This document shows positions 20,177-45,500 of a stretch of 47,671 bases of DNA, piece by piece (within the stretch, counting starts at the first letter, position 1; each line of letters opens with the position of its first letter). The DNA comes from Clostridia bacterium (GTDB taxonomy: Bacteria > Bacillota > DULZ01). The position numbers and the translations under genes are program-made. The notes beneath the pieces are model-generated. The model did not search any database, was not told where the DNA came from, and saw nothing but the letters and a program-made list of their open reading frames with translations. The DNA lies in NCBI GenBank assembly GCA_012840125.1, contig DULZ01000105.1, positions 1-47,671 of the forward strand, written 5' to 3'.

Positions 20177-20480
20177 CAAAATCATTTGCCGAAGCGTATA
20201 AAAATGCAATTCGAAAAAGCAATGACGGGGGCCATGCCAATTAAATGTCTCAGGTCACAGAGAGCCGGGGCAGGTGGGAGCCGGTACCGGGCTTTAGTTG
20301 GAATCTCTCCTCGTAGCTGCTTTGGTGAACGGCACAGGGTGCCCAGTAATCAAAGACGGTGTGCGCGACCGTTATTTCGCGACAACGAGTTGGCTGTTTC
20401 ATGCAGCAAACAGGGTGGTACCGCGGGAACCAGTGCCTCTCGTCCCTGGTAGTGATTGCCAGGGACGAGGGGTTTTTTTA
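20177..20480 (+). promoter_or_regulatory. T-box leader, probably leucine-specific (CUC specifier)
   Basis: tRNA-sensing leader of the ilv-leu operon. The T-box sequence AGGGTGGTACCGCGG is at 20412-20426, followed by a terminator (TCGTCCCTGG 20440-20449 with CCAGGGACGA 20459-20468, then T7). Stem I can be drawn: AAAGCA with TGCTTT, ACGGGG with CCTCGT, CCAATT with AGTTGG. This leaves the specifier bulge AATCTCT at 20302-20308, in which CTC (Leu) at 20305-20307 is the best-placed codon; ATC (Ile) at 20303 is the alternative. Uncharged tRNA would stabilise the antiterminator and switch on all ten downstream genes. Confidence 0.93.
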
Positions 20481-40669: not shown

Positions 40670-40864
40670 TAAAAAGGGGCGGGGGAGGAAGAACCATAAA
40701 AATTCTGTTCAGGTAAATTTTAATAGCTAAAGGAATTCCCCTGGCTTTCGTCGAAAATGGATATGCAAATCCTCTGACCTATCCCCTCCCATGCCCGTCA
40801 AGGTTGAATTAAGGGATTCTGGTAATTGCTTTTCCAAGGAATCTCTCCCAGAGGTGAAGCAGAC

Positions 40865-41689
40865 TTGAATTTATTGCAAATCCTGCCCTCCTTTAATTTC
40901 ATCGATCTCATTCGCGTGGCCGTGGACATAACAGTGGTGGCCTTTGTGCTCTACCGTTTTATTATGCTCATCCGCGGCACCAGGGCAGTCCAGCTGATCA
41001 AGGGATTGGCCATCCTTTTTGCTGCTTCCTTCCTGGCAGAGATCCTGGGGCTGACCACCATCGATTGGATCTTGGAACAGGTGCGGTTGGCTTTAGTGGT
41101 GGCCCTGCCCATCGTGTTCCAACCGGAGCTGAGGAGAGCTTTGGAACAGCTCGGACGCGGTAAGTTTTTTGCCCGTCCCTTGTCGTTTTTAGGTGAAGAA
41201 GATATGTCGCGGCTGATCAGTGAAGTGCTGCGGGCCACTCAAGTCCTGGTGAAATTGCAATACGGGGCTTTAATTGTCATCGAACGGGAAACGGGCATCA
41301 ACGATTATATTGAAACGGGAGTAACCCTAGACAGTGTCGTCTCGGCTGAACTCCTGATCAATATCTTTGTCCCCAATACCCCCCTCCACGACGGGGCCGC
41401 CGTCATCCGGGGGGACCGGGTCGCTGCCGCCGGGTGTTTCCTGCCTTTAAGCGACAGCCCTTACCTGAGTAAACAATTAGGTACCCGGCACCGGGCTGCG
41501 CTGGGGATTTCCGAGAATTCCGACGCTATCGCCATTGTGGTTTCCGAGGAGACAGGCACCGTGTCCCTGGCCCAGGACGGGAAGCTGGTGCGGTTCCTGG
41601 ATGAGAAAAAGCTGAGAGAAATGCTGGAAGAAGCACTGCTGATCAAACCTAATGCCCAAACAGGCTATTTCTGGCAAAAGAGGTGGTAG
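40865..41689 (+). CDS. cdaA: diadenylate cyclase CdaA (DacA/YbbP)
   Basis: 274-aa membrane enzyme making c-di-AMP from two ATP, controlling K+/osmolyte homeostasis and wall integrity. Three N-terminal membrane helices, then the DAC domain: TPLHDGAAVIRGDRV (DGA motif) and LGTRHRAALGISE (RHR motif) plus IVVSEETGTVSLAQDG. TTG at 40865 is 7 nt from AGGTGA and gives the usual N-terminus. Standard first gene of the cdaA-cdaR-glmM cluster. Confidence 0.94.
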   Translation: MNLLQILPSFNFIDLIRVAVDITVVAFVLYRFIMLIRGTRAVQLIKGLAILFAASFLAEILGLTTIDWILEQVRLALVVALPIVFQPELRRALEQLGRGKFFARPLSFLGEEDMSRLISEVLRATQVLVKLQYGALIVIERETGINDYIETGVTLDSVVSAELLINIFVPNTPLHDGAAVIRGDRVAAAGCFLPLSDSPYLSKQLGTRHRAALGISENSDAIAIVVSEETGTVSLAQDGKLVRFLDEKKLREMLEEALLIKPNAQTGYFWQKRW

Positions 41690-41692
41690 CGG

Positions 41693-42616
41693 ATGTGGGA
41701 ACATTTTAAGACAAACCTGCCTTACCGGATCATATCCATCTTGCTGGCCATCAGCCTGTGGGCGTGGGTGACCATGGCCCAGAACCCGGTGAAAGAAGCG
41801 GTGTACGAGATTCCGCTGGAAACCAAGAACCTGTCCAGCGATTTGATGGTGGCGGATAAGCCCTCCACCGTCACCGTGCGGGTGCAGGCCCGGCAATCGG
41901 TACTGGCCAACGTGACTTCCAGGGATTATCAAGCCTACGTTAATTTAAGCAATGCCCACATCGGCACGAATGTGGAACCGGTAGAAGTGAATACCCCCAG
42001 GGGCGTGGAGGTCATCCACACCAGTCCTTCCCAAGTCAATATTGTCATCGACCAGATCACCCAGGTGCAGCTGCCGGTGCGGCCCATCCTAACGGGAGAG
42101 GTGGCCACCGGCTATGCGGTGCTGGATCCCAGCATCAGCCCTACGGAAGTGCTGATTGACGGCCCGAAAAGCATTTTGGACCGCATCGCTGATGTGGTGG
42201 TCGACGTGTCCCTGAAGGGGCAGCGGGAGAGCTACCAGGAGCGGGTACCCATCAAAATCTTCGATGTGGACGGGAACCCCATCCAGGACTGGTTGAAAAT
42301 CAAACCGGAGACGGTGGAAGTCTTTGTCCCTGTGATCCGGGAATTACCGGCGAAAAGATTGATCATCAAACCCGTCCTGGAAGGAGAATTGCCCAGTGGC
42401 TTGACCGTCAAGCAGGTAGTGGTGGAACCGGAGATGGTGCAGCTCTTCGGCCGGTGGGAGCTGTTGGAAAAACTCGATTACCTGTACACGCGGCCCGTTA
42501 GCCTGGAGGAGGTTACGGAAACGGCGATTCTGGATGCGGAGTTGGATGTCCCGGAGGGCACTTACTTGGGCATACCTTCCCGGGCCAAAGTCATTGTGGA
42601 AATTGCCTCGGACTGA
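41693..42616 (+). CDS. cdaR: CdaA regulator CdaR (YbbR)
   Basis: 307-aa protein with one N-terminal membrane helix (YRIISILLAISLWAWVTM) followed by about three extracytoplasmic YbbR repeats (for example VTVRVQARQSVL, PTEVLIDGPKSILDRI, VRPILTGEVATGYAV). It binds and modulates CdaA in Firmicutes. Starts 3 bp after cdaA. Confidence 0.92.
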   Translation: MWEHFKTNLPYRIISILLAISLWAWVTMAQNPVKEAVYEIPLETKNLSSDLMVADKPSTVTVRVQARQSVLANVTSRDYQAYVNLSNAHIGTNVEPVEVNTPRGVEVIHTSPSQVNIVIDQITQVQLPVRPILTGEVATGYAVLDPSISPTEVLIDGPKSILDRIADVVVDVSLKGQRESYQERVPIKIFDVDGNPIQDWLKIKPETVEVFVPVIRELPAKRLIIKPVLEGELPSGLTVKQVVVEPEMVQLFGRWELLEKLDYLYTRPVSLEEVTETAILDAELDVPEGTYLGIPSRAKVIVEIASD

Positions 42617-42728: not shown

Positions 42729-44066
42729 ATGGGAAAACTTTTTGGCACCGACGGAGTGCGAGGCGTGGCCAACCGGGACTTGAGCCCTGAATTGGCCTAC
42801 CGTCTAGGCCGGGCCGGGGCTTACGTGCTGGCTTTACGAGATAAAAACCCAGCCGGGATCGTGATCGGCAAGGACACCCGCATTTCCGGGGATATGCTGG
42901 AAGCAGCGCTGGTGGCCGGCATTTGTTCCGTAGGGGTGGATGTCTATCGTTTAGGTGTCATGCCCACCCCCGGGGTGGCGTATCTGACCAAAGCCCTCAA
43001 TAAGGCGGCGGGAGCCGTGATTTCTGCATCCCACAATCCCTTTGGAGACAACGGCATTAAATTCCTTGGACCCCAAGGTCTCAAACTGCCCGATGAAGTG
43101 GAGGCGGAAATTGAAGGGCTGGTGTTAAACAACCGGGAGCTGCCCTATCCTACCGGCGAGCGAATCGGCCGGGTATATGACGTGGGCAACAGCCGTGATC
43201 TCTACGGCGCATATGCTAAGAGCTTGTTTAAAGGCTCCCTCGAAGGACTGAGAATAGTGGTGGACTGCTCAAACGGGGCCGCTTCTGCCATTACCCCGCG
43301 GGTTTTAACGGAACTGGGGGCGGAAGTGGTGACCATTTTTGCCGAGCCTAACGGGGTTAATATTAACGAGGGCTGCGGTTCCACCCATCCGGAGACTCTG
43401 CAGCAAAGAGTAGTCGCGGAAAAAGCCCATCTCGGTCTAGCCCATGACGGTGATGCGGATCGCCTGCTGGCCGTGGATGAGAAGGGCAACCTGGTGGACG
43501 GGGACCAGATCATGGTCATCACCGCCTTGGCTCACAAGGCCCAGGGCAAGCTGGAGCAAAACAAAGTGGTAGTGACGGTGATGAGCAACCTGGGCTTGCA
43601 CAAAGCCATGCAAAAGGCCGGCATCGAGGTTTTGGAAACCAAAGTAGGCGACCGGTATGTGCTGGAAAAGATGATGGAAACCGGGGCTGTCATCGGCGGG
43701 GAACAATCAGGCCATATCATTTATATCAAGCAGAATAACACGGGCGATGGCCTCATCACTGCCTTGAATCTGTTACAGGTGATGGTGGATACCCAAAAAC
43801 CCCTATCGGAACTGGCGGCCCAAATGGAGCGTTACCCGCAGGTGCTGGTCAACGTAACCGTGGCTGACAAAGAAAAAGTGCTGCAATCGCAGCAAGTGCA
43901 GGACGCCGTCCAAGCAGCCAAGGCACAGCTGCAAGATCGGGGCCGGATCCTGGTGAGACCTTCCGGTACCGAACCCAAGATCAGGCTCATGGCGGAAGGC
44001 CCTGACGAAGAGGAACTGAAAAGCATTGTCGATGCACTGGCCAAGGTAGTTAAGGAGGCAGAATAG
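42729..44066 (+). CDS. glmM: phosphoglucosamine mutase
   Basis: 445-aa enzyme interconverting glucosamine-6-P and glucosamine-1-P for UDP-GlcNAc and wall synthesis. [10 protein letters not shown] at the N-terminus, active-site phosphoserine in [17 protein letters not shown] (Ser101), metal loop AHDGDADRL, sugar loop GGEQSGHII and phosphate loop [16 protein letters not shown]. CdaA/CdaR regulate GlmM in some Firmicutes. The glmS-like gene that makes its substrate is next. Confidence 0.97.
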
Positions 44067-44147: not shown

Positions 44148-44184
44148 TGCTGTCCATTGCTATCGCAAGGACTCTCTGGGACAT

Positions 44185-44335
44185 GTTGCAGCGCCGGGAC
44201 CCTGCCCCGGCAGGGTTGACGAGGAAGGGGTTTATCGAACTTTTCGGCGGGTGCCCCTCGGCTGCCTACGGCCGTGAAAGCGGGACAAAACCGGGGAGCA
44301 ATTCCCGGCACAAATCCCATCGGGTAGGAGGGAGT
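44185..44335 (+). ncRNA. glmS ribozyme (glucosamine-6-phosphate-activated)
   Basis: Self-cleaving leader RNA that uses glucosamine-6-P as cofactor and destabilises the downstream mRNA. The cleavage-site sequence A|GCGCC is at 44190/44191; a P1 hairpin ACCCTG / CAGGGT (44199-44216) follows; the conserved core TTGACGAGG, GGGGTTTATCGA (44227-44238) and TCGGCGGGTGCCCC (44244-44257) are all present. A P4-like stem CCGGG / CCCGG (44291-44308) closes the 3' part. It ends shortly before the Shine-Dalgarno of the glmS-like gene. Confidence 0.95.
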
Positions 44336-44372
44336 CCTTACGCTTCAATTCTCAGACGTAAGGAGATGGAAG

Positions 44373-45500
44373 ATGACGATGACAAAGGAAACCATGGCAG
44401 CGGATAAAGGCGGCTATCCCCATTTCATGCTCAAGGAAATCATGGAACAGCCGGCAGTCGTGGAGCGGACACTGGCGGCCGCCGTCGCTTCGGTGGAAGA
44501 GGTCCAATGGCATGGGGACTTGGCCCGGTTGGACCTGGCCAAGTACGAGAAAGCTCTGGTGGTAGCCTGCGGCACCGCCTATCATGCCGGGCTGGTGGGA
44601 AAACACTTTATCGAAAAGACCGCCCGCATCCCGGTGCAGGCGGAGCTGGCGGCGGAGTTTCGCTATGCCGATCCTTTTGTGGATGAGGACACCCTGGTGC
44701 TGGTTATCAGCCAATCCGGCGAAACCGGGGATACCCTGGCCGCCATGCGGAAAGCAAAAGAGCAGGGCGGCACCATCCTGGCCATCACCAATGTGCCCGG
44801 CAGCACCATTGCCCGGGAAGCCCATTACGTGGTCAACACCGTGGCCGGGAAGGAAGTGGCCATCGCCTCCACTAAGGCTTACCTGGCCCAGATAGTCACT
44901 CTCTACCTCACCGGTGTGCAGCTTGCCACGGCCAAGGGAAGAATCACTCCTCAAGAAGGAGCCGGGTACCTTAGGGCTTTAGCCGGTATGCCCCGGATGC
45001 TGGCGGATATCCTAGCCATGCGGGAAGGATACCGGTCCGTGGCGGAGAGATTAGCTAAAAGCGCCCATGCCTTTTATTTAGGACGGGGCCTGGATGCGGC
45101 CGTCGCCATGGAAGGCTCTTTAAAACTGAAAGAGACCACCTATATCCACGCCGAAGCCTATTCCGCCGGGGAGTTCCGCCACGGGCCCATGGCCCTCATC
45201 GAAGAAGGCGTGCCGGCCATTGTGCTGGCCACCCAGCCGGAACTCGCGCAGCCCAATAAAGCCATTGTGGAAGAACTGAAATCCCGCGGGGCCTGGGTCA
45301 TTGCCGTGACCATGGCCGGCGAGGAATCAGTCCCATCCCTGTGTGACGATGCCATCGTACTGCCGAAAACATTGCCGGAATTGGCTCCGGTGCTGGCGGT
45401 GGTGCCTCTCCAGCTGATCGCTTATTACACCGCTTGCGCCAAGGGCCTGGCAGTGGACACCCCCAGGAACCTGGTGAAGAGCGTTAAAGATGCCCACTAG
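44373..45500 (+). CDS. isomerase-only GlmS (glutaminase domain absent)
   Basis: 375-aa protein matching only the C-terminal half of glucosamine-6-P synthase (usual length about 600 aa). It starts MTMTKETMAADKGGYPHFML, i.e. at the domain linker, with AAGGAG 7 nt upstream; no CGIVGYIG-type class II amidotransferase domain is encoded before it, since that space is the ribozyme. Both SIS domains are complete: CGTAYHAG (66-73), SQSGETGDT (113-121), KLKE254, RHGP (His270), and PRNLVKSV with Lys369. These align with E. coli Glu488, His504 and Lys603 at one constant offset of 234. It may make GlcN6P from fructose-6-P with free ammonia or a separate glutaminase, or run as a deaminase; the ribozyme favours synthesis. 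Confidence 0.9.
   Translation: MTMTKETMAADKGGYPHFMLKEIMEQPAVVERTLAAAVASVEEVQWHGDLARLDLAKYEKALVVACGTAYHAGLVGKHFIEKTARIPVQAELAAEFRYADPFVDEDTLVLVISQSGETGDTLAAMRKAKEQGGTILAITNVPGSTIAREAHYVVNTVAGKEVAIASTKAYLAQIVTLYLTGVQLATAKGRITPQEGAGYLRALAGMPRMLADILAMREGYRSVAERLAKSAHAFYLGRGLDAAVAMEGSLKLKETTYIHAEAYSAGEFRHGPMALIEEGVPAIVLATQPELAQPNKAIVEELKSRGAWVIAVTMAGEESVPSLCDDAIVLPKTLPELAPVLAVVPLQLIAYYTACAKGLAVDTPRNLVKSVKDAH

Follow-up and report, generated by a model that had tools for sequence, protein, structure and literature searches.

Background

GlmS is a textbook channelling enzyme; it catalyses the step that yields the first sugar building block of the cell wall in bacteria, with glutamine as the usual source of nitrogen. 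Its C-tail and Trp74 form the ammonia channel (PMC7948480). Canonical GlmS was described as unable to take ammonia as an alternative donor (PMC9272926), and is considered unusual among amidotransferases in this respect. Docking papers listed Ala602 among the active-site residues. Full-text searches of a limited literature retrieved no description of a glmS ribozyme controlling a GlmS devoid of glutaminase, although single cases may have been noticed earlier. Such an arrangement was encountered in the window, that is, the whole 47,671-nucleotide stretch of DNA analysed here.

Results and discussion

The glmS locus of the window

A glmS ribozyme (RF00234) was detected at 44179..44331 on the + strand (cmscan, 94.2 bits against a gathering threshold of 37, E 9.6e-21) and matched the full model (1-167). 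The core motifs AGCGCC, GACGAGG, ATCGA, TCGGCGG and ACAAA were all present together with an A/G cleavage site, and self-cleavage is predicted at A44190/G44191 (+), inside AGCGCC; the intact core and cleavage site read by the first-pass annotation were thereby confirmed. The same core was common to most other loci combining a ribozyme with isomerase-only GlmS. It was the only RF00234 match in the 2.47-Mb assembly, and a chance match was ruled out by the E value of about 1e-20 and by the occurrence of the same element at the same place in relatives.

The ribozyme is followed by a Shine-Dalgarno sequence, AAGGAG (44360..44365, +), located 7 nt ahead of the ATG at 44373, and by an open reading frame of 375 aa (44373..45500, +). 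Pfam recognised two SIS domains and nothing else. The protein aligned with positions 239-598 of the 601 of model NF001484 (422 bits, above the cut-off of 381), scored just below the cut-off of the TIGR01135 equivalog (404.5 versus 418.05 bits), and was aligned with residues 242-605 of E. coli GlmS (E 3.5e-79), which covers the isomerase domain end to end. The class II glutaminase domain with Cys1 was absent from the protein, as the first reading of the sequence had proposed, the match starting at model position 238-239 out of ~600, and there is no room for this domain because only 41 nt separate the ribozyme end from the start codon.

The isomerase active site was intact, again in agreement with that reading. 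In E. coli numbering, the protein kept C300, G301, T302, S347, Q348, S349, T352, S401, E481, K485, E488, H504 and K603, catalytic Glu488, His504 and Lys603 being residues 254, 270 and 369 of the window protein. Its AlphaFold model (mean pLDDT 82, pTM 0.87, last 12 residues poorly predicted) matched the E. coli isomerase domain (1mos/1moq) with a TM score of 0.84-0.87.

Directly upstream of the ribozyme lies an open reading frame (42729..44066, +) which, from sequence knowledge, we take to be glmM (phosphoglucosamine mutase), the next pathway step after GlmS. It is preceded by genes presumed, from sequence knowledge, to be cdaA-like (40826-41689, +) and ybbR/cdaR-like (41693-42616, +). The usual gene order is cdaA-cdaR-glmM-glmS, and it was also displayed by loci L073, L074 and L125. 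A T-box leader was additionally found at 20213-20450 (+, 97.8 bits).

Distribution among relatives

Three samples were considered: 61 related genomes, a draw of 398 genomes from the phylum (best-scoring matches listed, so that weaker ones may have escaped notice) and 54 genomes from the family of G017. Isomerase-only GlmS was found in at least 17 genomes, namely the window's own (G000), G001, G002, G008, G017, G133, G262, Pelotomaculum sp. UBA5255 (G398, locus L125), G407, G412, G424, G426, G431, G433, G434 (gene cut by a contig end), G436 and G437. A glmS ribozyme preceded the gene in 11 of them, comprising the window's and ten other Bacillota genomes (G001, G008, G017, G133, G262, G398, G407, G412, G433 and G434), two of which (G017 and G262) are single contigs. 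An assembly error, in particular the missing amidotransferase segment envisaged by the first-pass annotation as a refutation, was ruled out by this recurrence; nor is the arrangement unique to the window, since it recurs convergently.

No ribozyme was found at the isomerase-only glmS of G002, which starts 11 nt after glmM (L074 1385-1395), or at five copies from f16 genomes (G424, G436, G437, G426 and G431; loci L226, L228, L229, L230 and L232), and the fetched flanks of these five displayed no glmM match. The ribozyme-less copies count against the use of free ammonia proposed below. In G001, G002, G017, G133, G262, G398, G407 and G434, glmM stood upstream of the isomerase-only gene, and orthologues were 52-76% identical.

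Two-domain GlmS occurred besides the isomerase-only copy in the window's assembly, G262, G424 and G431; G262 carried glmM, one ribozyme, the isomerase-only gene and a two-domain glmS in tandem on its one contig (L195 5369-8764). None was found in G001, G002, G008, G017, G133 and G398, so that isomerase-only GlmS is the sole GlmS of six genomes, including the single-contig, 98% complete G017. NagB was ruled out as an alternative source of GlcN6P, none being found in eight genomes, these six among them. Separately, for 76 of the 398 sampled Bacillota genomes, some near-complete (G013, G018, G022), no GlmS match at E 1e-60 was among the matches listed.

Independent origins and convergent substitutions

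A tree was built from 69 isomerase domains, leaving out positions 489, 602 and the C-tail. On its supported branches, five transitions between the two-domain and the isomerase-only form are required; glutaminase-less GlmS arose at least five times. A single ancient origin was rejected, the one-clade tree costing 225 log-likelihood units (AU test, p-AU 2e-60). The five groups consisted of the family of the window's genome together with Pelotomaculum; G008; G017 and G133; G262, which stands next to the two-domain copy of the same genome; and a further nine proteins from f16.

Of 153 columns conserved at 90% or more in two-domain enzymes, 100 stayed unaltered throughout the five origins, and only two, positions 489 and 602, had changed in every one of them. 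Position 489, beside catalytic Glu488, is Ile in E. coli and was Thr in 17/17 isomerase-only proteins (Thr255 in the window protein, codon 45135..45137, +). Position 602, in the C-tail beside catalytic Lys603, is Ala in E. coli and in no isomerase-only protein, where Val, Thr, Ser or Gln were found instead (Val368 in the window protein, codon 45474..45476, +). Ala602 itself presumably lines the channel. Pairwise contrasts for both residues all pointed in one direction; with five pairs, a sign test cannot reach 0.05. By comparison, the catalytic set was kept in all 17 proteins, one displaying Thr for Ser347, and Lys603 in all 16 that reach it. A 610-aa two-domain GlmS with Thr489 and Thr602 was found in G438 (L238), near G017/G133 in the tree, and is plausibly an evolutionary intermediate.

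The C-terminal TVE, constant in two-domain enzymes, was not kept in several origins. Together with the altered residue 602, this argues against a split amidotransferase, in which a separate glutaminase would feed ammonia through a protein complex as HisH does to HisF. Splits are normal in other amidotransferases, HisF/HisH being an example (PMC11350729), and class I glutaminases are conceivable partners. Nevertheless, in the six sole-copy genomes the GlmS model picked up no stand-alone class II glutaminase, and across the genomes with isomerase-only GlmS the further matches of the GlmS N-domain were confined to proteins of ~460-500 aa (PurF in the window's genome) or of asparagine-synthase size; those of the six sole-copy genomes look like PurF and asparagine-synthase-type proteins. 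A split enzyme was accordingly considered improbable. Of the two donors suggested by the first-pass annotation, free ammonia is thus the better supported, through the six genomes devoid of other GlmS and NagB, while a separately encoded glutaminase found no support.

The convergent residues also recall stand-alone SIS proteins. Structures 3fj1, 7kqa and 3hba/8eol displayed Thr or Val at the equivalent of position 489 and a residue other than Ala at that of 602; 8eol, which has Val489, is named a GlcN6P deaminase and releases free ammonia. The window protein might accordingly be a catabolic deaminase derived from GlmS and running towards F6P + NH3, the reaction being formally reversible. Its scores, however, were far under the cut-offs of the deaminase models (146.6 versus 430 for NagB-II, NF046059; 85.8 versus 580 for GlmD, NF041128), the gene lies behind glmM under a ribozyme that would switch it off as the substrate rises, and the six sole-copy genomes would be left with no recognised route to GlcN6P. 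We regard a catabolic role as quite unlikely.

A second, two-domain GlmS in the same assembly

A further glmS gene of the window's assembly is divided between the ends of contigs C94 (4.6 kb) and C59 (5.0 kb), which have exactly 127 nt in common; joined, the two parts encode an ordinary two-domain GlmS. An RF00234 search revealed no ribozyme at this gene. The two contigs (C59 and C94; loci L080 and L081) carry argH, argG and glmS, with divergent hisH, hisF, guaA and carA. The first-pass annotation had called for a search for a full GlmS elsewhere in the genome, and one was indeed found, but on contigs that look foreign. The assembly has a further hisF on contig C4, which shares 70.5% identity with its counterpart in family member G001, whereas the hisF of C94 reaches only 54% with each of these two; argG was found in the assembly on C59 only and is absent from family members G001 and G002. 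GC and tetranucleotide composition of C94/C59 were within the range of the window's genome and thus uninformative as to a foreign source, and no further contigs joined to them via shared 127-nt ends were found among the sampled contig ends. Judged from gene content and identities, the cluster may be either a contaminant introduced during binning or an island that the genome has acquired.

Because the assembly also holds this two-domain enzyme, the window's genome may have a source of GlcN6P besides the isomerase-only copy. That copy might even be a leftover paralogue that does not act as a synthase but has a phosphoglucose-isomerase-like or regulatory role, in which case the true GlmS would be a two-domain copy such as that of C94/C59. 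Two-domain GlmS likewise accompanies the isomerase-only protein in the three genomes mentioned above, and the isomerase domain of the E. coli enzyme is active as an isomerase on its own (Leriche 1996, as cited in PMC7948480). The persistence of the catalytic set across the isomerase-only proteins, the retention of ribozyme and synteny, the six genomes in which no other GlmS copy was found and the foreign appearance of C94/C59 all speak against a leftover paralogue, which we judge very unlikely.

Glutaminase parts missing from GuaA and the his operon

The GuaA encoded on C57 of the window's assembly (L278 9195-10160, - strand) is 321 aa long and matched the GMP synthase model over positions 193-512 only. 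Its gene starts 15 nt behind an hpt-like gene; at the same place, G017 and Pelotomaculum displayed GuaA proteins of 510-513 aa. The his operon on C4 (L241 5056-10976) reads hisG-hisD-hisB-hisA-hisF-hisIE and lacks hisH. The operons of G001 (L243), G017 (L245), G133 (L248) and G262 (L254) also had no hisH between hisB and hisA; hisH was present in that of G008 (L244). In Pelotomaculum UBA5255, the corresponding operon (L255 772-2829) displayed hisB-hisA-hisI, with neither hisH nor hisF there. PurF and PurL of the window's assembly kept their glutaminase domains. No further hisH or carA was found in the ~1.35 of 2.47 Mb of this assembly sampled by stretches.

The glutaminase-less GuaA and the hisH-less his operon suggest that the replacement of glutamine by ammonia extends beyond GlmS in the window's genome. 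Contigs C94/C59 carry glutamine-dependent versions of glmS, hisF and guaA, the native copies of which are without glutaminase parts. That just these enzymes are present there in glutamine-dependent form may be either a coincidence or a clue.

A broader scenario is put forward only tentatively. In several Bacillota lineages, GlcN6P synthesis would independently have exchanged glutamine for free ammonia as its nitrogen source, through loss of the glutaminase and acquisition of the same two substitutions; in the window's lineage this would be part of a wider glutaminase loss (GuaA, HisH), which the foreign glmS-hisHF-guaA-carA cluster may reverse in this strain.

Proposed function

The window protein is probably a GlcN6P synthase that uses free ammonia under product feedback from its ribozyme. 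A ribozyme repressed by GlcN6P and a neighbouring glmM argue for synthesis rather than breakdown; where, as in six genomes, no glutaminase, NagB or other GlmS was found, the simplest nitrogen donor would be free ammonia. Sole-copy genomes that carry glmM need GlcN6P, which counts for isomerase-only GlmS as its maker. Also in favour of the proposal are the five independent origins, the two substitutions common to all of them and partly paralleled in stand-alone SIS proteins including an ammonia-releasing deaminase, the putative intermediate in G438, and the GuaA and his operon of the same genome.

Under this proposal, the starting point would have been an ordinary glmS under ribozyme control, which then lost its glutaminase half. 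The remaining isomerase half would have retained its catalytic set and been changed at the sugar/ammonia site, by Ile489 to Thr and, in the window protein, Ala602 to Val; both changes may be adaptations to ammonia arriving from solvent and not via an internal channel. Cytoplasmic ammonium could push the formally reversible reaction of F6P and NH3 towards GlcN6P, GlmM would consume the product, and GlcN6P in excess would cause the ribozyme to cut the mRNA. Ammonia use, reaction direction and ribozyme activity are thus predictions of this scheme. Since canonical GlmS is reported to be unable to use ammonia (PMC9272926), a gain of function would be required in the isomerase-only enzyme, which counts against the proposal; the obvious place to look for such an adaptation is the pair of convergent substitutions.

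The glutaminase-free versions of GlmS provide a short, testable list of what lets the active site take free ammonia. They further point to the formation of GlcN6P, not to the glutaminase in its own right, as what the ribozyme controls, and suggest that ammonia has taken the place of glutamine in several essential pathways of some anaerobes. A glutaminase-free enzyme should be insensitive to GlmS inhibitors that are glutamine analogues.

Comparison with known systems

Among described systems, canonical GlmS/GFAT (TIGR01135, PRK00331; E. coli 1jxa, 2j6h) shares with the window protein the full catalytic set in an isomerase domain of up to ~52% identity, the gene position after glmM and, in the case of the two-domain glmS of Bacillota, the same ribozyme. 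In contrast, the window protein has no N-terminal glutaminase, and for this reason neither Cys1 nor the Trp74 channel gate; Ile489 and Ala602 are replaced and TVE is not kept. Stand-alone SIS GlcN6P deaminases (NagB-II NF046059, 8eol; GlmD NF041128) are likewise glutaminase-free with a single SIS pair, also differ from GlmS at positions 489 and 602, and are expected to share the F6P/GlcN6P + NH3 chemistry; unlike them, the window protein falls in the GlmS clade and stands in a biosynthetic, ribozyme-controlled context. HisF, which in vitro can work with ammonium salts when HisH is missing, offers a parallel for the synthase half of an amidotransferase using free ammonia (PMC11350729), although this is an in vitro property of a subunit whereas the window gene is naturally without glutaminase. 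Finally, the ribozyme resembles other members of RF00234 in its full-length match, core, A/G cleavage site and location just upstream of the gene, and differs from them in governing an isomerase-only GlmS.
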